Assembly (NCBI RefSeq): GCF_016909495.1
Contig: NZ_JAFBFW010000002.1
Span: 372,001 to 436,000 of the forward strand
DNA length: 64,000 nucleotides
Direction: 5' to 3'
From: Pantoea coffeiphila
GTDB taxonomy: Bacteria; Pseudomonadota; Gammaproteobacteria; Enterobacterales; Enterobacteriaceae
Shown here: piece by piece, positions 22,170 through 32,428 of the stretch
Numbering within the stretch: the stretch's first letter is position 1
Layout: every line of letters begins with the position of its first letter
Made by a program: the position numbers and the translations under genes
The notes under the pieces: generated by a model
The model's database searches: none
What the model was told of the DNA's origin: nothing
What the model saw: the letters and a program-made list of their open reading frames with translations, nothing else

Positions 22170-22208
22170 TTTTCTGCCGAGAGGCAGGAGTGAGCTGAGT
22201 TGATAAAG

Positions 22209-22237
22209 CCGCCGTCTTTGAGATGGCGGTTTTTTTT
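22209..22237 (+). terminator. Intrinsic terminator of gpmA
   Basis: CCGCCGTC-TTTGA-GATGGCGG (one G-U pair) is followed by eight T, 40 bp past the gpmA stop. Confidence 0.92.
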
Positions 22238-22270: not shown

Positions 22271-22420
22271 GCGCCAGGTTTCCAGCCTCTTCCGATGTTG
22301 CTGAAAAACCGTGCCGGGTTCCCAGCCTCTGCCGGTGTTGCTGAAAAATCGTGCCGGGTTCCCAGCTTCTGCCGGTGTTGCTGAAAAACCGTGCCGGGTT
22401 CCCAGCCTCTGCCGGGGCTT
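22271..22420. repeat. 40-bp tandem repeat array (about 3.7 copies)
   Basis: Units start at 22271, 22311, 22351 and 22391, the last truncated at about 30 bp. Each begins GTGCCGGGTTCCCAGCCTCT (first copy divergent) and ends GTTGCTGAAAAAYC. The period is not a multiple of 3, so it is not a coding repeat. The segment CAGCCTCTGCCGG inside each unit is also the left outer arm of the structured element that follows, so the array looks like an expansion of that element's edge. Confidence 0.9.
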
Positions 22421-22603
22421 CCGGTCGGTCCTCGCGTCACGCGCTGCGTGATGCCTTCGGTTACAGCATCCGGCCGGTCGGACCGCCGAAGACGTGTCAT
22501 CCCTGACCCGACTTCGCCTGACGCCAACTTCCCTGTTGGCGTCTCCTGGCCATCTGCTTTCACCTCAGCGCTGCGGATTGCCCGGTATCCCCGGCAGAGG
22601 CTG
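22403..22603 (+). repeat. Structured repeat element, copy A
   Basis: The outer arms CAGCCTCTGCCGGGG (22403-22417) and its complement (22589-22603) enclose three hairpins. Hairpin I is CGGTCC/GGACCG (22426-22431, 22480-22485) with inner TCACGC/GCGTGA (22437-22451). Hairpin II is CGAAG/CTTCG (22487-22491, 22512-22516). Hairpin III is GACGCCAAC/GTTGGCGTC (22520-22528, 22535-22543). TCCTGGC (22544-22550) and CAGCGCTGCGGATTGCC (22566-22582) follow. The same order of blocks occurs inverted at 22925-23118. Family unknown to me. Confidence 0.8.
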
Positions 22604-22621
22604 TGCACCTTCAGAGCATTG

Positions 22622-22691
22622 TTATTGCTGCCTGGCAAATCGTTCAGGCTGCGATGTTTAACATGTAAACTCAGCGAAAAAGCAGCAATAA
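22622..22691. repeat. 10-bp inverted repeat between the two structured elements
   Basis: TTATTGCTGC (22622-22631) and GCAGCAATAA (22682-22691) enclose 50 bases that contain a smaller GCCTG/CAGGC hairpin. It directly abuts the 7-bp tandem array. Function unknown. Confidence 0.6.
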
Positions 22692-22726
22692 GGCGAAAGG
22701 CGAAAGGCGAAAGGCGAAAGGCGAAA
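22692..22726. repeat. Five tandem GGCGAAA heptamers
   Basis: Five exact consecutive copies of GGCGAAA form a simple-sequence array in the gpmA-aroG interval. Such arrays vary by slippage. It is not in a credible gene. Confidence 0.93.
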
Positions 22727-22924
22727 GCAGAGTTTTGTAGATTCTTTTTGGCATGGATACAACCGCAGGCTAGACCACCGATCTCCAACTGATGGCATTA
22801 ATGCACAAAACAGATGTTTTCTGATCTGAAGACCACGCCAGAGTCGCTAATACGCAATCTGATTAACGCTAACCAGCTGAATAGTAATGAGGGGTTATCG
22901 CAAAAAAACGCTGAAGCTACGGAA

Positions 22925-23118
22925 CAGACGGATCGCTGCCCGCTTCGGCAATCCGCAGCGCTGAACGGAGAGAGAAAGCCAGGATTTGGCCGCATGGACG
23001 CGGCCAAAAAGCACAGCCGCGCGGGACACGCGTCTGTGCTGGTCCGTGAGGCTGACGAACGAAGTGAAGGCACCGCAAAGCGGCGCGAGGACCGCCGAAG
23101 CGGGCAGCGATCCGTCTG
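22925..23118 (-). repeat. Structured repeat element, copy B (inverted relative to A)
   Basis: Perfect 25-bp inverted arms (22925-22949 and 23094-23118, beginning CAGACGGATCGCTGCCC) enclose three abutting hairpins. Hairpin I is GGTCC/GGACC (23041-23045, 23089-23093) with inner CCGC/GCGG (23073-23083). Hairpin II is AGCACAG/CTGTGCT (23010-23016, 23034-23040). Hairpin III is an 8-bp TTGGCCGC stem (22986-23007). On the minus strand it shares GGTCCTCGCG, GTGTC, TCCTGGC and CAGCGCTGCGGATTGCC with copy A in the same order, while the stem arms differ but remain paired. Confidence 0.85.
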
Positions 23119-30126: not shown

Positions 30127-30176
30127 AGCAAAAAGGCGCCTTTAGGGCGCCTTCTTAACATTGGTGGGTCGTGCAG
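30127..30176 (-). repeat. Duplicated tRNA-Lys 3' end plus terminator
   Basis: These 50 bases are identical to 30283-30332, which covers the 3'-terminal 15 bases of the last tRNA-Lys (including CCA) and its terminator hairpin. The copy lies 156 bp further downstream in the direction of tRNA transcription and has no tRNA body. The spacer includes a CGTTGCC/GGCAACG hairpin (30207-30222). The arrangement recalls the tandem units behind E. coli tyrT. Confidence 0.85.
30131..30153. terminator. Terminator copy between alkA fusion and tRNA operon
   Basis: AAGGCGCC-TTTAG-GGCGCCTT lies 36 bp past the alkA stop. Its U-run is better on the minus strand, but it can act on either. It is the duplicated copy of the tRNA operon terminator. 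Confidence 0.75.
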
Positions 30177-30284
30177 TATGACTCGGCTTCGCCTCGCCCT
30201 TCGGGCCGTTGCCGTGGCAACGTTGTCTCACTGCGTTCGACCCGAACCTGCTGCAGGTACGAATCCCGCCCGAATAACGAATAG

Positions 30285-30309
30285 CAAAAAGGCGCCTTTA
30301 GGGCGCCTT
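30285..30309 (-). terminator. Intrinsic terminator of the tRNA operon
   Basis: On the minus strand AAGGCGCC-CTAAA-GGCGCCTT is followed by TTT, 9 bp after the CCA end of the last tRNA-Lys. Confidence 0.88.
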
Positions 30310-30317
30310 CTTAACAT

Positions 30318-30393
30318 TGGTGGGTCGTGCAGGATTCGAACCTGCGACCAATTGATTAAAAGTCAACTGCTCTACCAACTGAGCTAACGACCC
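30318..30393 (-). tRNA. tRNA-Lys (UUU), last in operon
   Basis: The 76-base gene starts GGGTCGTTAGCTCAG. The anticodon loop is CTTTTAA with anticodon TTT, the T-arm is GGTTCGAATCC, and a CCA end is encoded. It is identical to the other three tRNA-Lys genes here. Confidence 0.97.
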
Positions 30394-30397
30394 GAAA

Positions 30398-30473
30398 TGG
30401 TGGGCGATGACGGGCTCGAACCGCCGACCCCCTCCGTGTAAAGGAGATGCTCTACCAACTGAGCTAATCGCCC
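30398..30473 (-). tRNA. tRNA-Val (UAC)
   Basis: The 76-base gene starts GGGCGATTAGCTCAG. The anticodon loop is TTTACAC with anticodon TAC, the T-arm is GGTTCGAGCC, and CCA is encoded. It lies 4 bp from the neighbouring tRNA-Lys. Confidence 0.96.
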
Positions 30474-30522
30474 ATTTCGGAACTGCTTTTACTGCTCTTG
30501 CTCTACGCATCACTTTAAGTGA

Positions 30523-30598
30523 TGGTGGGTCGTGCAGGATTCGAACCTGCGACCAATTGATTAAAAGTCAACTGCTCTACCAACTGAGCTAACGACCC
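30523..30598 (-). tRNA. tRNA-Lys (UUU)
   Basis: Same 76-base sequence as the other tRNA-Lys genes, with anticodon TTT and encoded CCA. It lies 4 bp from the next tRNA-Val. Confidence 0.97.
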
Positions 30599-30602
30599 GA
30601 TA

Positions 30603-30678
30603 TGGTGGGTGATGACGGGCTCGAACCGCCGACCCCCTCCGTGTAAAGGAGATGCTCTACCAACTGAGCTAATCACCC
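30603..30678 (-). tRNA. tRNA-Val (UAC)
   Basis: 76 bases with anticodon TAC. It differs from the first tRNA-Val in the acceptor stem (GGGTGATT with a compensating AATCACCC on the other side), so pairing is kept. Confidence 0.96.
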
Positions 30679-30753
30679 ATATCAGAACTGCTGTACTTCT
30701 TTTATTACTCTGCGACTTACATCGCTCATCACATTAAGTATTAACCTAAGTGA

Positions 30754-30829
30754 TGGTGGGTCGTGCAGGATTCGAACCTGCGACCAATTGATTAAAAGTC
30801 AACTGCTCTACCAACTGAGCTAACGACCC
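30754..30829 (-). tRNA. tRNA-Lys (UUU)
   Basis: 76 bases identical to the other tRNA-Lys copies, with anticodon TTT and encoded CCA. Confidence 0.97.
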
Positions 30830-30859
30830 GACGCTCGGTAAATCTTTACAGCTTTAAAG

Positions 30860-30935
30860 TGGTGGGTCGTGCAGGATTCGAACCTGCGACCAATTGATTA
30901 AAAGTCAACTGCTCTACCAACTGAGCTAACGACCC
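30860..30935 (-). tRNA. tRNA-Lys (UUU), first in operon
   Basis: 76 bases with anticodon TTT and encoded CCA. It is the promoter-proximal gene of the Lys-Lys-Val-Lys-Val-Lys operon. E. coli has seven tRNA genes at this place; here there are six. Confidence 0.97.
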
Positions 30936-31099: not shown

Positions 31100-31903
31100 T
31101 TAAAGAGCTGCGGAACGCTTTTGCGCCTGCTTTGCCGCTTCACTGTTTGGATAAAGTTTTATGACCTGCTGGTAAACGGCTTTGGCTTTTGCTTTATCGC
31201 CTTTTTCCTGCATGATCACCCCAACCTTAAACAGCGCATCGGCGCTTTTTGGCGATTTAGGGTAGTTTTTGACAACGGTGGCGAAATAGTAGGCCGCATC
31301 GTCTTTTTTGCCTTTGTTGTAATTCAACTGCCCAAGCCAGTAGTTGGCATTAGGCTGATAGGTTGAATCCGGATACTTTTTCACAAAGGCCTGAAACGCT
31401 GCGATAGCCTGATCGTACTGTTTTTTTTCCAGTACCAGCGCCACCGCCGCGTTGTAGTCGGTATTCGCATCGCCGCTTTGCGTCGGTGCGGCCGCTGGGG
31501 CCGCCGCCGTTGCATCGCCTGCCGCACTGCCGGTTGCAGCCGCCGCTCCGGCTGCTGCATCTCCCGCACCGCTGGCCTGCGCACCGGCACCGCCGCTGCT
31601 CAGAGTGTCAATCTGCTGAAGGATACTTTTCTGTCGCTCAACAACCTGGTTCAGCTGATAGCTGTTTTCCTGGATCTGGCCGCGCAAAGAATCGATGTCG
31701 TTTTGCGTGTCGGAAAGCTGCTGCTGAAGCTGCTGGAGGAGTTGTGCCTGAGCATTAGAAATACGCTCAAGTGTGGTGACGCGGTCTTCGACCGAGCCTG
31801 AGCCAACGCTACTGATTGTTGCCTGGGCATTAGCGGCCCAGGGGGCCGCTATGCCAATCAGTAACGACAGACTCAATAGTTGAGTTCTGAAGCTACTAAT
31901 CAT
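31100..31903 (-). CDS. cpoB: Cell division coordinator CpoB (YbgF)
   Basis: CpoB is a periplasmic protein that links TolA and PBP1B so that outer-membrane constriction keeps pace with septal wall synthesis. The 267-residue precursor has a signal peptide (LLSLSLLIGIAAPWAANAQA), a coiled-coil trimerisation region rich in Gln (about 40-100), an Ala/Gly-rich linker, and three TPR-like repeats (SGDANTDYNAAVALV, YQPNANYWLGQLNYNKGKKDDAAYYF, KSADALFKVGVIM). It follows pal by 9 bp at the end of the tol-pal cluster. Confidence 0.95.
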   Translation of the reverse strand: MISSFRTQLLSLSLLIGIAAPWAANAQATISSVGSGSVEDRVTTLERISNAQAQLLQQLQQQLSDTQNDIDSLRGQIQENSYQLNQVVERQKSILQQIDTLSSGGAGAQASGAGDAAAGAAAATGSAAGDATAAAPAAAPTQSGDANTDYNAAVALVLEKKQYDQAIAAFQAFVKKYPDSTYQPNANYWLGQLNYNKGKKDDAAYYFATVVKNYPKSPKSADALFKVGVIMQEKGDKAKAKAVYQQVIKLYPNSEAAKQAQKRSAAL

Positions 31904-31912
31904 GTCAGTCTC

Positions 31913-32428
31913 TTAGTAAACCAGTACGGCACGACGGTTTTTAGCATAGGCTGCTTCGTCGTGGCCCAGTACAGCTGGCTTCTCTTTACCGTAAGAAACG
32001 ATAGAGATCTGGTCAGCAGAAACGCCTTTACCCTGCAGGTACATCTTAACTGCGTTAGCACGACGCTCGCCCAGTGCGATGTTGTACTCAGGAGTTCCGC
32101 GCTCATCCGCGTGACCTTCAACAGTCACTTTGTAAGACGGGTTGCTACGCAGGAAGTTAGCGTGCGCATCCAGCATCTGAGCGAATTCAGACTGGATGTC
32201 ATATTTGTCCAGACCGAAGTAAACGATGTTGTTCTGCTGCAGCTGCTGCATCTGCAGACGCGCCTGCTCGTCAGAAGACATGTTGCCGCCGTTGTTGTAG
32301 CCGCTGTTAGAACCGTCCTGACCTGCATTGGTCTGGTCGTTGTTGTTGTTCTTGTGAGAGCTACAAGCCGCTACCGCGATTACTGGCAGTGCCAGCATTA
32401 AGCCTTTCAGCACTTTGTTCAGTTGCAT
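31913..32428 (-). CDS. pal: Peptidoglycan-associated lipoprotein
   Basis: Pal anchors the outer membrane to peptidoglycan and is the cargo of the Tol motor. The 171-residue precursor has a lipoprotein signal with the lipobox ending VAAC22, an Asn-rich linker, and an OmpA-like domain ([41 protein letters not shown]) that binds meso-diaminopimelate. It lies 42 bp after tolB. Almost identical to E. coli Pal outside the linker. Confidence 0.97.

Follow-up and report, generated by a model that had tools for sequence, protein, structure and literature searches.

Two related structured units, termed A and B, lie between gpmA and aroG in the window, i.e. the whole stretch of 64,000 nucleotides that was analysed (Table 1). 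An earlier, sequence-only reading had proposed two copies of a multi-hairpin element here, A on the plus and B on the minus strand, and both the copies and their limits are confirmed. It also held that they fill the gpmA-aroG interval. They do occupy this interval, but share it with a 40-bp tandem array and, in the spacer, with a 7-bp repeat of the GGCGAAA type. Many other genomic copies also adjoin short simple tandem repeats, as judged by eye, and these have perhaps arisen by slippage next to strong hairpins. The intrinsic terminator 3′ of gpmA reads toward the element and may be native or element-borne; in another genome (G001, L073) a similar terminator also follows gpmA, at a site where neither A nor B is detected by blastn. 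Elsewhere in the window, Rfam models recognise six tRNA genes together with RtT RNA (30162-30935) and the CpoB/ybgF thermometer RNA (31874-32012).

Table 1. Features of the gpmA-aroG interval, in window coordinates
Feature	Positions	Strand	Basis or remark
Intrinsic terminator 3′ of gpmA, oriented toward the element; may be native or element-borne	22205..22233	+	
Tandem array, period 40, 3.6 copies, including the A outer arm	22273..22415	+	
Unit A, half of the pair	22403..22603	+	coordinates, blastn, fold, family alignment, pair geometry
A hairpin I	22434..22454	+	predicted fold
RF01731 (TwoAYGGAY) match	22479..22548	-	model positions 43-114 of 168, 51.8 bits, gathering cutoff 43
A hairpin II, minus-strand loop CAGGGATG	22488..22515	-	limits by eye
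A hairpin III, minus-strand loop CAGGGAAG	22520..22543	-	limits by eye
CAGCGCTGCGGATTGCC in A, family-conserved	22566..22582	+	
Spacer separating halves A and B	22604..22924	.	contains the 7-bp repeat at 22690-22727
Unit B, the other half, in inverted orientation to A	22925..23118	-	coordinates, blastn, fold, family alignment, pair geometry
CAGCGCTGCGGATTGCC in B, family-conserved	22947..22963	-	
B hairpin III, plus-strand loop CATGGACG	22985..23008	+	limits by eye
B hairpin II, plus-strand loop region GCGGGACAC, without the full CA(N)GGANG motif	23011..23039	+	limits by eye

Both units are predicted to fold as an outer stem around hairpins, as had been proposed, and the folds are far better than those of dinucleotide shuffles, with -108.4 kcal/mol for A (z -8.3) and -123.5 kcal/mol for B (z -10.4), none of 200 shuffles being as good in either case. 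The sequence blocks shared by the two units, CAGCGCTGCGGATTGCC among them, recur throughout the family. The compensatory changes noticed between the arms are real and strong. They were counted on A-type copies only (41), with the structure predicted on the same alignment as was scored, and under these terms 96.2% of cells hold standard pairs as against 81.3% after shuffling, and only 29-48% with the partner column shifted; 37 of the 52 pairs are changed on both sides, a number equalled by none of 500 shuffles. Replacement of whole hairpins, and not of single paired bases, forms part of this change, as seen by eye when G013 is compared with G000 and G011 at the site of L100.

The element had been described as unrecognised, a description that gives way to the match of unit A with TwoAYGGAY RNA, Rfam family RF01731, above the gathering cutoff. 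An Rfam match is the kind of finding which that reading had itself named as refuting it. It is the minus strand of A that matches, across two hairpins, whereas the match extends over only part of the model. The B unit of the window scores under the gathering threshold, which many B-type copies elsewhere exceed. In the genome that carries the window, at least 76 RF01731 matches occur at E up to 1 and at least 70 above the cutoff (150 of 181 candidates scored). The family was found in none of 14 control genomes and in 18 of 60 genomes, own included. Its distribution within the genus is patchy: seven genomes, again counting the window's own, have at least 27 matches each, with at most 38 candidates scored per genome, and for 23 of the 35 other congeners no match was seen. 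A class-wide draw detected RF01731 in 15 of 369 genomes and 13 of 272 genera, own included.

Blastn within the same genome returns at least 64 matches to A and at least 66 to B, with 40 candidates scored for each. A profile search of 49 loci, which were picked from earlier hits and thus give copy numbers as lower bounds, yields 120 hits, 90 of which are full length (41 A-like and 49 B-like). The geometry of these copies revises the view of A and B as two separate copies, since they appear as the two different ends of one element. Full-copy neighbours less than 1 kb apart (n=36) comprise 21 cases of A on the plus strand followed by B on the minus strand, 13 of B plus followed by A minus, one of B plus with B minus and one of A plus with A plus. 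A is joined to B in 34 of the 36, and the order is plus then minus in 35, plus-plus in one and minus then plus in none. The lone B-B pair has, by eye, A-like outer arms on one side. Paired units are separated by 83-681 bp, the shortest spacers consisting, by eye, of about just two abutting 3′ arms, and 19 of the 90 full copies are unpaired. According to ORF calls that are too crude for a claim of enrichment, 15 of 34 plus-minus pairs lie between convergent genes.

The same arrangement is encountered outside this genome. At least 93 named loci were selected by exact motif in Pantoea, Erwinia and records titled Enterobacter cancerogenus M004, and the 80 that were analysed comprise 58 plus-minus, seven minus-minus and five plus-plus arrangements and no minus-plus one. 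Divergent subfamilies in G004, G014 and G032 keep the plus-minus order in seven of eight loci (L212-L219, some hits being weak). The units constitute a paired, two-ended family that belongs to RF01731. Rfam matches in G216, G326 and G420, which are distant members of the class, are also paired with the same divergent orientation. Inspection by eye of four pairs among the distant loci L313-L332 places the TwoAYGGAY pair within a wider inverted arrangement whose apparent ends are different (L325-L327 and L329), and several element families may carry the motif. Passages from five publications (PMC2864571, PMC4333381, PMC7657543, PMC11661157 and PMC11701678) mention no A/B pairing, mobile-element context or terminator target for TwoAYGGAY.

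Two further observations concern the arrangement of copies. In G002, a single unit stands opposite a direct tandem of units on the other strand, five in L200 and six in L201, with a period of about 455-543 bp; these arrays are local amplifications of one half. Copies at contig ends look alike by eye, the one at C1:1246769 (L102) being close to that at C2:3139, and the one at C2:363 resembling that at C2:3399 (L103, G000 C2:355-3584). Because look-alike copies lie at contig ends, assembly breaks may fall inside the element.

Mobility, one of the two options left by the sequence-only reading in the form of a MITE-like element, is best documented in Pantoea. In P. agglomerans NBRC 102470 (nine loci) and HJS002 (seven loci), the pair is located inside near-identical elements of about 552-566 bp, 16 in all. 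These are typically bounded by TAATGCTGGTCAGTTAAG and CTTAACTGACTGGCATTA. The record of the E. coli K-12 IS4 gives TAATGCCAGTCAGTTAAG and TAATGCCGATCAGTTAAG as its two ends, and its duplication, ATCTTGGTTCTG, is 12 bp long. The first of these IS4 ends agrees with one Pantoea end at 18 of 18 positions, and the other Pantoea end matches either IS4 end at 16 of 18. Among 35 compact pairs of the named loci, 19 have both IS4-type ends (up to five mismatches), and 11 of these 19 are flanked by a duplication of 9-14 bp (at most one mismatch), including one, L277, with poor ends. The length of these duplications is close to the 10-13 bp given for the IS4 subgroup in the accessible part of PMC2266710 (Table 1 therein). 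One or both ends are undetectable in the remaining 16 pairs, five of which are Erwinia loci.

The sites of insertion share a structure. Empty sites were reconstructed for 11 loci, i.e. the ten with a duplication and both ends, L277 being left out for its poor ends, and L267, whose 13-bp duplication was recognised by eye. Ten of the 11 fold as a hairpin with its loop inside the duplicated segment; the exception is L234, for which 82 of 200 shuffles fold as well, and L239 is weaker than the others (6 of 200). An A- or T-run stands beside the stem, as in intrinsic terminators, in nine of the ten hairpins by eye, L239 having none. Uninterrupted sites exist in other genomes. A search with eight joined flank pairs covered 14 genomes, among them NBRC 102470, where the flank halves of its own six sites are about 560 bp apart. 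Joined flanks without interruption were found for the L238 site in eight of the 13 other genomes, and for L229 as well as L267 in six genomes each. At base level, six sequences display the intact junction hairpin, namely L336-L338 (site of L238), L339 (L229), L343 (L230) and L344 (L241), and local alignment reached one side only in L340-L342. Insertion with IS4-type ends into terminator hairpins is established for Pantoea. The element also brings a terminator of its own, located just inside its left end: in L229 this has a folding energy of -19.9 kcal/mol, with a T-run following it. A terminator scan of L229 reported zero despite this structure, and its zero is no evidence of absence.

The Pantoea element nevertheless differs from IS4 in several respects. 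It is without a transposase, measures about 0.56 kb compared with 1.4-1.65 kb, and carries a structured RNA-like cargo. It regularly targets terminator loops, whereas the word ‘terminator’ occurs 0 times in the accessible text of PMC2266710. An IS4-family insertion at the axis of a palindrome is described for ISRm22 in the available part of PMC1525189, which concerns a full insertion sequence with transposase, 6-bp repeats and a REP rather than a terminator target. In the open-access literature, a link between TwoAYGGAY and an IS4-type element was not found in print. The N-terminal domain of the IS4 transposase (PF13006) was not detected in either P. agglomerans genome (E 0.001), nor in five of six tested genomes of the window's genus, G014 giving a short 25-bit match; an autonomous IS4 residing in the same genomes was thus rejected across the eight tested. 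An autonomous element enclosed by wide-set copies was rejected as well for two intervals, L110 and L123, whose ORFs were judged by eye not to encode a transposase. Carriage by plasmids was likewise rejected, PLSDB yielding two weak Pantoea hits; two P. agglomerans HJS002 loci are plasmid-borne.

REP, BIME and REPIN sequences are intergenic, palindromic and organised as inverted pairs, and the paired inverted hairpins of the present family resemble REP doublets. Being palindromic, intergenic and present in many copies, the units could be viewed as DNA palindromes whose mobility depends on a Y1 (RAYT) transposase, an enzyme recognising hairpins in single-stranded DNA. This origin is highly improbable. 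TwoAYGGAY units are much longer, and those of Pantoea have terminal inverted repeats of the IS4 type and duplications of 9-14 bp. Mobilisation by RAYTs is further weakened by a search for the Y1_Tnp domain (PF01797) at E 1e-5: of the seven rich genomes, five (G000, G002, G004, G011 and G013) have no match and G014 only a weak one (2.6e-6), G035 lying outside the draw.

The situation is different in the Erwinia lineage to which the window belongs. The comparison of the gpmA-aroG interval across relatives, called for by the sequence-only reading, bears out presence and absence at this site. Of 30 fetched loci, 25 are measurable, and 19 of these same-genus intervals are only 53-201 bp long. The A/B pair is found in three genomes, the own one, G011 and G013, and two others have a long interval without A/B hits. 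The gpmA protein of the window is identical to that of G011, and the two genomes are close relatives. G004 has its own divergent plus-minus pair in the same interval (L212). With the interval short at 19 congeneric loci and occupied here by a divergent pair, the site was apparently used on two occasions.

The sites are shared with other species of the lineage. Out of 28 anchored pair loci, 27 were found in G011, with 26 fetched (L148 is cut by a contig end), and 26 of 26 were obtained in G013. At least one full copy is present in 24 of the 26 G011 regions and 25 of the 26 G013 regions, often with local amplification. In G014 and G016, for which eight of 27 anchors were fetched, none of the eight orthologous regions has a full copy. 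At one site (L184 in G013, corresponding to L130), the 5′ part of unit A is mostly gone, and its 3′ part and B are retained. IS4 ends flank the pairs of the own genome no better than in a reversed control, and stray matches to such ends number 0-2 per genome in G000, G011, G013 and G002. Since the ends beside own pairs do not exceed this control, IS4-type mobility is established for Pantoea only. Own loci are homologous to the Pantoea element across up to about 490 of 564 positions, and the copies of the window are thus homologues of an IS4 MITE without being filed as one themselves.

Rates of change differ along these loci. In 27 orthologous comparisons with exactly one plus and one minus full copy in both genomes (23 for spacers, four being too short), the median identical fraction is 0.927 in the cores, 0.925 in the coding flank, 0.832 in the outer flank and 0.641 in the spacer. 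Cores match as well as the coding flank, and spacers turn over; the cores must be maintained either by constraint or by gene conversion. The latter could account for their similarity too, as the copy at the orthologous site is the best match for no more than 16 of 24 A and 19 of 26 B units. Copies of the Erwinia lineage are old residents at sites common to the species, with conserved cores and spacers that turn over.

The two strands of the units are not equivalent. Each of the 90 units has the motif CA(N)GGANG on the strand that points outward from the pair, minus for A and plus for B, and 78 of them have exactly two, for a total of about 184 matches. The outward strand forms two adjacent hairpins with AYGGAY-like loops. 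In the window, A has two such motifs and B one, a GGA loop being missing in B. GGA triplets number 6.7 (A) and 7.0 (B) per copy on the outward strand, compared with 2.9 and 2.6 on the inward strand. The motif resembles the CsrA/RsmE consensus, A/UCANGGANGU/A. Evolution of the helices adds a second asymmetry. When pairs found on both strands alike are considered, which makes the count strand-neutral, wobble changes in the interior helices of 93 A and 109 B copies favour the outward strand, with 56 GU versus 23 AC events (p 0.0003), whereas the outer stems give 43 versus 37 (p 0.58; interior versus outer p 0.03). The bias is modest and comes to 36:11 in A and 20:12 in B, the latter being weak alone. 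The separation into interior and outer helices was suggested by an earlier wobble count that was biased by a structure predicted on the outward strand. A like bias could also result from single-stranded DNA of the outward strand or from a mutational strand bias.

These data bear on whether the fold is selected at all. It is conceivable that a passive repeat is kept by gene conversion and slippage, its fold being produced by template switching between arms. Hairpins exchanged wholesale at an orthologous site, flanking tandem arrays, partial copies and outer stems without strand bias would all agree with such a process, which is unlikely in view of the conserved loops within variable stems, of the strand-specific wobble of the interior helices and of the conservation of cores between changing spacers. 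The same three features, i.e. loops with GGA retained while stems change, interior strand specificity and cores conserved like genes at shared sites, are what a host-encoded family of regulatory RNAs would display. Each pair would then specify two outward CsrA-binding RNAs, or parts of 3′ UTRs, at fixed sites, and mobility would be incidental or long past. A match of RF01731 to a CsrA motif, reported in the accessible portion of PMC4333381, points in this direction. The patchy presence across genomes and congeners described above, the exact Pantoea insertions with target duplications and the existence of tandem and partial copies speak against it, as does a search in and beside the window pair and L229 that found no promoter-like sites. 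A host-encoded family is, accordingly, a possible but rather unlikely account. Because of the lack of such promoter-like sites, transcription and function are the most uncertain parts of any interpretation.

We consider it likely that A and B are halves of one small non-coding, MITE-like and terminator-seeking element, which is old and possibly domesticated in the lineage of the window. It would be composed of two related hairpin units of about 200 nt set 3′ end to 3′ end, with the TwoAYGGAY motif on the outward strands. Its intact form, as shown in Pantoea, is about 0.56 kb long, with IS4-type terminal inverted repeats, duplications of 9-14 bp across terminator loops and a terminator brought along. 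A transposase of the IS4 subgroup presumably moved it in trans. The element would be nearly harmless, because it lands in a terminator and supplies a new one. Pantoea and Erwinia copies probably have a common origin, with loss of the ends in Erwinia.

Less surely, the outward strand may be the functional folded strand, and its GGA loops, if transcribed, may bind a protein of the CsrA/Rsm type, which would explain why cores outlive ends. As in CsrA-sequestering RNAs, multiple GGA hairpin loops are gathered on one strand; CsrB, CsrC, RsmY and RsmZ likewise have several GGA motifs on one strand, and here two of them are in hairpin loops. The TwoAYGGAY units differ from these RNAs in being dispersed in tens of copies, in having no promoter seen and in being known here from sequence. 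A bolder proposal, advanced tentatively and as rather unlikely, is that a terminator-landing transposon family scatters paired CsrA-binding hairpins and that, once the ends are lost, some hosts keep them as a CsrA sponge spread over the genome and supplied by read-through of terminators.

Since 2010, RF01731 has stood as an orphan RNA motif with no known function. Its recognition as the paired cargo of a probable terminator-seeking mobile element, with GGA loops on a definite strand, opens the TwoAYGGAY question to direct experiments. If the RNA reading is true, this would be a mobile element that distributes the binding sites of a global regulator.
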